From Pyrinomonadaceae bacterium (lineage in GTDB: Bacteria; Acidobacteriota; Blastocatellia; Pyrinomonadales; Pyrinomonadaceae), in assembly GCA_021228405.1 (NCBI GenBank), contig JAJQRF010000017.1, forward strand, positions 1-57,342: a stretch of DNA of 57,342 nt, read 5' to 3'. Both the position numbers and the translations under genes were made by a program. Under the pieces are notes generated by a model, which saw only the letters and a program-made list of their open reading frames with translations, ran no database searches and had not been told where the DNA came from. Below, in pieces: positions 1-55,217 of this stretch (within the stretch, counting starts at the first letter, position 1; the number at the start of each line of letters is the position of its first letter).

Positions 1-121
1 GCCTCTGAAACATTGCACGGAGCCTCTGAAACATTGCACGGAGCCTCTGAAACATTGCACGGAGCCTCTGAAACATTGCACGGAGCCTCTGAAACATTTT
101 CACTTCGCGAAAATGTTTCAG
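1..121. repeat. Tandem 21-bp repeat ending in a hairpin
   Basis: Four identical 21-bp units (gcctctgaaacattgcacgga) fill 1-84. A fifth copy starts at 85 and diverges at about 99. The diverging copy forms the left arm of a perfect 13-bp stem (89-101 with 109-121, loop 102-108), so the array ends in an inverted copy of its own core TGAAACATT. The array meets the window edge and may continue upstream. There are no spacers, so it is not a CRISPR. No gene is visible in 1-207. Confidence 0.95.
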
Positions 122-33984: not shown

Positions 33985-34021
33985 GGATTTTGGATTTTAG
34001 ATTTTGGATTTGATTCAATAA

Positions 34022-34053: not shown

Positions 34054-34205
34054 ATTGTCGAACAAACTGAAGTTTGTTCCTTCAACAGCCGGTCGAACAT
34101 CTCGAAAGTGATGGAGCGAACGGTTAAGCAGGGAAACAAATTGAAGTTTGTTTTACTTTGAATATTTAACCGTCTGAAACCTTCTCCACATTAAAAATTG
34201 TTCGG

Positions 34206-34414
34206 TTTATAATTTCTAAACTGTAGTTTAGAAATTATAAACTTAAGTTTAGAAATTATTAATTTAGGTTTAGAAAATAAAAACTTTAGTTTAGAAGTTA
34301 TTTTACTCGGTATGGAAATTATTTACCGAAGTTTATAATTTCTAAATTTAAGTTTAGAAATTATTTACTTTGGTTTGGAAATTATTTACTTTGGTTTAGA
34401 AATTATTTACAATC
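34206..34414. repeat. Array of about nine degenerate 20-24-bp AT-rich repeats led by a palindrome
   Basis: The left end is a perfect palindrome: 17-bp arms (34206-34222 and 34225-34241) with a 2-bp GT centre. Then AGTTTAGAAATTATTTACTTTG-like units follow head to tail up to 34414. One copy near 34332-34353 is inverted. The unit core TTTAGAAATTAT is about one to two helical turns apart from copy to copy. The array lies directly before the ribosome binding site of the next gene. It is neither a CRISPR nor coding; a multi-site operator or an AT-rich nucleoid or phase-variable element is possible. Confidence 0.85.
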
Positions 34415-34449
34415 CATTTAATCAATTATTTCCGGCAAAGGAGGATTTT

Positions 34450-37127: not shown

Positions 37128-37195
37128 TGGTTAGTTGTTCGTAGTTCGTTGATATTTTGTTCCCGCAACTAACCACGAACAACCGACAACGAACA
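37127..37195. repeat. Inverted repeat in the gcvT-gcvH spacer
   Basis: GTGGTTAGTTG (37127-37137) pairs with CAACTAACCAC (37166-37176), and further CGAAC/GTTCG-type complementarity continues. The right arm contains the 15-mer also seen between bshC and mutL. The hairpin may stabilise or process the polycistronic RNA. Confidence 0.65.
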
Positions 37196-37209
37196 AATTG
37201 CAAAATATT

Positions 37210-37599: not shown

Positions 37600-37605
37600 A
37601 TAACT

Positions 37606-37658
37606 GATAACGGATAACGGATAATTGAAATTTATTAACTATTCGTTATCCGTTATCC
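37606..37658. repeat. Inverted repeat in the gcvH-gcvPA spacer
   Basis: GATAACGGATAACG (37606-37619) pairs perfectly with CGTTATCCGTTATC (37644-37657). A second register shifted by 6 bp also pairs over 13 bp. The hairpin lies 7 bp after the gcvH stop and 15 bp before the gcvPA start. Confidence 0.75.
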
Positions 37659-54971: not shown

Positions 54972-55009
54972 TCTGCAAAAAATTCAATTCTAAAAATATT
55001 TCTGCGGTT

Positions 55010-55135
55010 GTTATTGTCAATTCGGGGAACTCAATAGTCAATCATGGCGGTGTCATTGTCAATTTGGGGAAGTCAGTTGTCAATTGTGGCGGTGTCATTG
55101 TCAATCGGTGCGGTCTGGTAGTCAATTGCGGTTTA
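55010..55135. repeat. Six 21-bp repeats with GTCAAT at exact 21-bp spacing
   Basis: Units start at 55010, 55031, 55052, 55073, 55094 and 55115. Each holds GTCAAT at its positions 7-12 (55016, 55037, 55058, 55079, 55100, 55121). Alternate units share GGGGAA or GGCGGT tails, so a 42-bp super-repeat is also visible. The period equals two helical turns. It lies between proC and the convergent transporter gene. Confidence 0.9.
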
Positions 55136-55181: not shown

Positions 55182-55217
55182 CGTTCAGAGTTCAAACTTT
55201 AGTTTGAACTCTGAACG
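55182..55217. terminator. Perfect palindromic hairpin, probable bidirectional terminator
   Basis: A 17-bp stem (55182-55198 with 55201-55217) and a 2-bp TT centre (CGTTCAGAGTTCAAACT/AGTTTGAACTCTGAACG). It lies 40 bp from the stop of the DHA2 transporter. It lacks a T-run. The shape matches the palindrome at 34206-34241. Confidence 0.65.

Follow-up and report, generated by a model that had tools for sequence, protein, structure and literature searches.

Arrays of 21-bp repeats stand upstream of orphan gene families in Acidobacteriota

The window analysed here (57,342 nucleotides) is a whole contig of the draft genome of a Pyrinomonadaceae bacterium (class Blastocatellia), which comprises 5.72 Mb in 20 contigs. 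Between an ORF of 190 aa and one of 228 aa lies an array of repeat units approximating RGTTTAGAAATTATTTACTTT, with an A+T content of 81% across positions 34204-34410 (Table 1). Its best lag score, 0.68, exceeded that of all 500 first-order Markov versions of this stretch, which reached no more than 0.57. A sequence-only reading of this DNA had reported a repeat array and a perfect palindrome at this place, and the observation as a whole was confirmed, with its measures revised. The repeat proved to be present as ten units with a period of 21 bp and not 20 bp, and the palindrome, given as 36 bp, extends to 38 bp with 18-bp arms around the same 2-bp centre. Where a single inverted copy had been described, two units (beginning at 34204 and 34330) have their core reversed, both in register, as read from the printed units. 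The palindrome formed by the first two units is the longest perfect one found in the window when arms of at least 13 bp and loops of at most 4 bp are considered. In-register core reversal did not emerge as a general trait, a strict criterion calling it in 2 of 51 arrays and in 1 of 153 permuted ones; in the focal array it is visible by eye and fails that strict criterion. An Rfam search returned 14 matches, all below gathering, and a tRNA search found none.

Table 1. Positions of the repeat arrays, palindrome, focal gene and its candidate signals in the window
Feature	Position	Strand	Remarks
Perfect 21-bp array, unit GCCTCTGAAACATTGCACGGA, 4.7 copies	1..98	.	contig start
Promoter-like TCCACA-17-TATAAT, upstream array edge	34185..34213	+	candidate
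Focal array, ten 21-bp units in one register	34204..34413	.	best lag 21/42
Perfect palindrome, 38 bp, 18-bp arms, 2-bp centre	34205..34242	.	units 1 and 2, core of unit 1 reversed
Unit 7, core reversed in register	34330..34350	.	from printed units; inverted matches 34325-34374
Promoter-like TTTACT-17-TACAAT, built by last two units	34385..34413	+	candidate, 37 bp before ATG
Ribosome binding site AAAGGAGG	34437..34444	+	from sequence
Family 1 gene, 228 aa	34450..35136	+	predicted helices 9-123, FN3-like beta sandwich 142-225
Degenerate period-21 array	55004..55131	.	between convergent genes, no family member adjoining

The ORF of 228 aa was taken to start at ATG 34450, because AAAGGAGG lies directly upstream and the alignments of its homologs begin there. 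The in-frame start within the repeats, TTG 34375, had been called spurious and is indeed an ORF artefact. Two promoter-like sites, one at either end of the array, are candidates only, since four such sites were found in a 601-bp region where 2.0 were expected.

The 228-aa protein had no Pfam or NCBIfam match. Its AlphaFold2 model (mean pLDDT 92.7) consists of helices followed by a beta sandwich, and Foldseek matches to the model were to FN3 domains only; a sequence search for relatives of solved structure gave a best E of 0.084, which is unconvincing. Neither did 28 members of the same group have any Pfam or NCBIfam match worth the name. The focal protein belongs to an undescribed multicopy family (family 1), of which its own genome holds nine members. 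Matches to this family, some of them partial, were found in 37 of 119 genomes of the window's bacterial family, and a narrower profile applied across the phylum found it in 9 of 297 genomes, all within that bacterial family. A wide contig look-up gave no match with a first query and 10 loci with a second, all in Acidobacteria/Acidobacteriota MAGs. The queries used gave no match to family members in plasmids, phages or viral contigs.

Two further families were defined from genes that follow arrays elsewhere. Family 2, from the gene after the array in L038, is multicopy, encodes a protein of 224 aa with an all-helical model, and was aligned from 22 members. Profile comparison of families 1 and 2 gave no homology (probability 0.3%), and a fold search with family 2 gave nothing at E 0.001 or better. 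Family 3, from the gene after the L032 array, has four matches starting at residue 1 (three in the focal bacterium's own genome and one in G023), the remaining matches examined being short, to its C-terminal part, and within other large proteins. One genome, G013, has two partial family 1 matches with a wider profile and also carries family 2.

The 1.5 kb on each side of a family gene were scored for self-matching at lags 10-50 across 126 bp. An array was called where the best lag was 20-22 or 40-42 with a score of at least 0.5. Loci with less than 200 bp upstream (L146, L153, L042 and L216) were set aside. Of the family 1 genes tested, 45 of 52 had an array upstream and 1 of 49 had one downstream. 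The idea was formed on a first set of 34 loci, in which 31 had an upstream array (all except L133, L154 and L155) and none of 33 a downstream one; a later set of 18 loci, fetched afterwards, gave 14 upstream (all except L204, L205, L217 and L218) and 1 of 16 downstream. Grouping of members that share at least 60% identity left 36 groups, 32 of them with the array upstream. Family 2 displayed the same arrangement, with arrays upstream of 24 of 29 genes (missing at L220, L223, L226, L228 and L234), downstream of 0 of 30, and in 22 of 26 groups at the same identity limit; at its loci outside the window's bacterial family (L226 and L234 in G030, L228 in G032) no array was found with the criterion as used. 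Three of the four family 3 members were scored, and all three had the array upstream and none downstream. Across the three families the array was thus upstream at 72 of 84 loci and downstream at 1 of 82, being absent by the criterion at 12 of the 84. The possibility raised earlier, that the array is unique and not kept in relatives that retain the gene, does not hold, because 45 of the 52 family 1 members have it, and to the question whether the FN3-like gene is always preceded by the array the answer is nearly yes. An architecture in which arrays lie on the upstream side of orphan gene families is strongly supported.

Control genes, ORFs of at least 150 aa in sampled stretches, were given the same score. 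In G211 and G203, which carry family 1, arrays were found at 0 of 109 control ORFs, so that in these genomes they are seen only at the family genes; a survey of 200 kb elsewhere in the two genomes revealed no such array. The controls were likewise without arrays (0 of 108) in G306 and G276, both of which have partial family 2 matches and the latter one weak family 1 match, and in four genomes from other families of the class (0 of 195). In the window's bacterial family, seven genomes lacking a match to the focal protein, with G013 counted among them despite its partial family 1 matches and its family 2, gave 2 of 241, and G012, G006, G008 and G023 together 5 of 150. The focal bacterium's own genome stood apart, with arrays upstream of 21 and downstream of 26 of 237 control ORFs. 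Dispersed arrays near other genes thus occur there, and to a lesser extent in G012, G006 and G023.

The abundance of arrays in this genome was analysed in a sample of 400 kb in 20 evenly placed stretches, which contained 14 arrays of at least 4.5 copies with a period of 20-21 or about double. Twelve lay outside long ORFs; the two within long ORFs (L022:14275-14513 and L040:10579-10705) indicate that some period-21 repeats may be coding. Over 470 kb, a total that includes two stretches chosen for their arrays, 19 of 21 arrays of at least 4.5 copies and a period of at least 12 had a period of 20-21 or about double, and a third-order Markov version contained no array of 4.5 copies. The window itself has two arrays besides the focal one. 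This contradicts the claim that the architecture before the focal gene is found at no other gene of the window: the perfect array at 1-98 precedes the gene at 208 by 110 bp, and a further array occupies 55004-55131. An array related to the focal one (68%) was found on another contig, and the units of the arrays at 1-98, at 55004-55131 and in L005 are unrelated. The dispersed arrays of this genome, several of which lie between convergent genes, are not explained by a promoter element. The contig starts inside the array at 1-98, which is probably the cause of the assembly break there.

We then considered what is conserved among the arrays. The best lag of called arrays was 20, 21, 22 or 40-42, and mostly 21 or 42; these lags are the calling criterion itself, yet all lags from 10 to 50 competed. 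The arrays of family genes contain about 6 to 21 units, generally 21 bp long and occasionally 20 or 22 bp. A motif common to 35 arrays was not found: the information was 5.09 bits, and 12 permuted sets gave 4.63-5.12 bits. The arrays thus lack the shared motif by which a sequence-specific operator array of one regulator would be defined. Units are homogeneous within an array and unrelated between arrays, and 15 of 34 arrays had a self-complementary unit (p<0.05).

Comparison of orthologs showed how unit and period behave. In the close orthologs L193 and L194 the units agree at 19 of 21 positions and the arrays have 9.9 and 14.9 copies, bearing out the earlier suggestion that copy number may vary among relatives. 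L187, L185 and L186 keep related units, and their distances to the start are 612, 650 and 1317 bp. The more distant homologs L188 and L189 (57% and 49% identical to L187) also have an array of period 21, built from a different unit. At L190-L192 arrays were weak or short only, and in the close orthologs L142, L145 and L149 the unit sequence tracks the gene. The period is thus retained among orthologs that differ in unit and copy number. A sister gene is preceded by a GC-rich array with the unit GGAACGGTTTGACGGCTTGGC, and since such GC-rich arrays exist and no motif is shared, the idea of an AT-rich target for a nucleoid protein is not supported in general.

Intrinsic curvature was predicted with a wedge model. 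In this model 21 is the period with the greatest mean curvature among 18-24, and the predicted curvature of the arrays exceeded that of full shuffles (mean z -2.07). Against column-permuted arrays there was no excess (mean z -0.20), and curvature chosen by the unit sequence was rejected on this ground. The focal array was not more curved than its own shuffles.

A comparison between G203 and G179 bears on the inheritance of the array. The flanks of a family 1 gene and its array in G203 (L159) continue in G179 (L250) at 90.6% and 84% identity. G179 is without the piece of about 1,150 bp that holds gene and array, and has about 270 bp of unrelated DNA in its place. The block ends about 30 bp past the stop codon on one side and, on the other, about 40 bp outside the distal end of the array. 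In this one case array and gene were gained or lost together as a block, which does not imply transposition; the orthologs in G203, G179 and G211 are syntenic. The replacing DNA in G179 (L250:1227-1500) contains an imperfect inverted repeat. A 96-bp sequence beyond the G203 array (L159:2661-2756) has partial or full matches at three G179 sites and shorter ones in G211 and G137.

An A-run followed by TTG and a -10-like hexamer stood no more than 250 bp from the start codon in 16 of 52 genes of family 1, compared with 13 of 263 and 4 of 260 control genes, and was not enriched in family 2 (2 of 29). Where both could be placed, the array ended between 18 bp past and 421 bp before the -35 element. 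This search, which gave 15 of 44 with L188 and L206 (identical output) taken as one locus, began 30 bp before the array end and is blind to promoters deep inside arrays, so it could not show that the array always lies upstream of the promoter.

These properties suggest that what is recognised in the element is its spacing and not its sequence. Our preferred reading, to which we give slightly less than even confidence, is that the array is a helically phased upstream element, probably a same-face platform for protein binding or bending at the promoters of orphan genes prone to gain and loss. Twenty-one base pairs are two turns of B-DNA, and every copy of the unit would thus face the same side, whatever its letters. 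Such a platform might be a row of sites for a cooperatively binding protein, or might act by phased bending or flexibility, and would set the activity of the adjoining promoter, for which the focal gene offers a candidate within the last two units. Array and gene would be inherited together and at least once would have been gained or lost together. Several results speak against this reading: the dispersed arrays of the own genome, no rarer downstream of genes than upstream, the A-run promoter that is not enriched in family 2, a predicted curvature that does not exceed that of column-permuted arrays, and the 12 of 84 loci at which the array is absent by the criterion. Several same-face copies for a putative regulator appear the best remaining mechanism; from the earlier interpretation, the nearly constant upstream array and the varying copy number are retained and the AT-rich target is dropped. 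A wider proposal, possible but doubtful in our estimate, is that the element is recognised by its period, any 21-bp unit serving, and marks a recurrent module of Acidobacteriota, which would consist of an array and a stand-alone orphan gene from one of several unrelated families and be gained and lost as one piece. Such arrays would be made, kept in register and used by a dedicated putative machinery.

The arrays might instead be a by-product of mutation, functionless minisatellites that grow by a duplication step of two helical turns in young or unconstrained intergenic regions. This would account for the own-genome arrays, 12 of 14 of which are outside long ORFs, beside varied genes and without orientation bias, and for units that are alike inside an array and unrelated between arrays. 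It would not lead one to expect the restriction to the upstream side (72 of 84 loci, with 1 of 82 downstream), the survival of the period through turnover of the unit, or the state of G211 and G203, where 200 kb away from the genes held no array and yet family 1 has arrays upstream; we consider it unlikely. Still less probable to us is a cassette or mobile module, in which array and gene move or recombine together and the array is an attachment or pairing site. The block missing from the syntenic G179 site, with about 270 bp of other DNA instead, the patchy distribution in 37 of 119 genomes of the bacterial family and the several copies per genome would suit it. However, the block is a single comparison that loss explains equally well, the module has no integrase or transposase, the orthologs in G203, G179 and G211 are syntenic, and the queries used found no family member in plasmids, phages or viral contigs. 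Transposon ends of the IS21 or Tn7 type carry several sites of about 20 bp, and the arrays could be remains of such ends with repeated transposase sites, an origin to which we give almost no credence. Those repeated sites speak for it. Against it, the unit differs from array to array, the array stands on one side of the orphan gene only, and the own genome has no rve match over the cut-off (one below it); matches to IstB-like ATPases were unspecific, being present in 13 of 14 control genomes too.

Plasmid iterons are the nearest known arrangement, and a system of their kind would have each protein bind its own array, with protein and unit coevolving. According to PMC4980987, iterons are direct repeats 17-22 bp long, and cooperative binding to them depends on helical phase, a half-turn offset abolishing cooperativity. 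The arrays share with them direct repeats of iteron size beside a gene and a unit particular to the replicon or gene, and the adjoining gene and the unit that follows it in L142, L145 and L149 would agree with autoregulation. We nevertheless hold such autoregulation to be very unlikely, as 19 of 28 family 1 proteins have a pI below 6, the family 1 fold is predicted to be helices and FN3 without a known DNA-binding domain, family 2 has a different, all-helical predicted fold, and arrays in the own genome far outnumber such genes. Unlike iterons, the arrays are chromosomal, many per genome, have up to about 21 copies, and differ in unit even between paralogs; in place of a winged-helix Rep there is a focal protein with no Pfam or NCBIfam match. 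The arrays are therefore not filed as iterons, the families not being Rep, family 1 being mostly acidic and each array having its own unit.

Other known classes share some features with the arrays. Phased curved DNA and multi-site activator regions, such as Fis sites or phased A-tracts, occur upstream of strong promoters and resemble the arrays in position and helical phasing; the arrays differ in having no common motif or A-tract rule, in using GC-rich and AT-rich units alike, and in showing no curvature beyond that given by the period (z -0.20 in the wedge model). Promoter VNTRs and minisatellites are tandem, homogenised and variable in copy number, as are the arrays (9.9 and 14.9 copies between relatives), whereas here three families and many genomes keep to a period of 20-22 bp with the sequence free. 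CRISPR loci also place repeats beside a gene, but the arrays are head-to-tail 21-bp units with no spacers, and no cas gene was among the proteins examined. A search of the open-access literature found no description of such helix-phased arrays. Within that scope, and as no known class tested fits, we regard this kind of array as new; if the platform were demonstrated, it could also be counted as a variant of phased upstream sites.

Were the preferred reading true, these would be cis elements defined by helical phase and free in sequence, tied to orphan families that lack functional leads. As they can be detected in any genome by autocorrelation alone, they provide a handle for further array-associated genes and allow a direct test of whether bacterial regulation or DNA upkeep reads a period instead of a motif. 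If they are a by-product of mutation, they would expose a duplication process that steps exactly two helical turns, which is apparently also new.

Other repeats were seen in the window. A second perfect palindrome with 17-bp arms (55182-55217) lies just past the array at 55004-55131, and its core, which resembles AACAAACTGAAGTTTGTT palindromes at 34061-34078 and 34135-34152 and a repeat in L050:479-583, is perhaps a dispersed REP-like element. Tandem repeats of a 7-bp unit, intergenic or nearby, occur in the own genome (window positions 33985-34011, 37166-37196 and 37600-37624) and in G203, with examples at L173:5701-5849 and L174:6878-6953, and form a separate repeat class of fixed short period.
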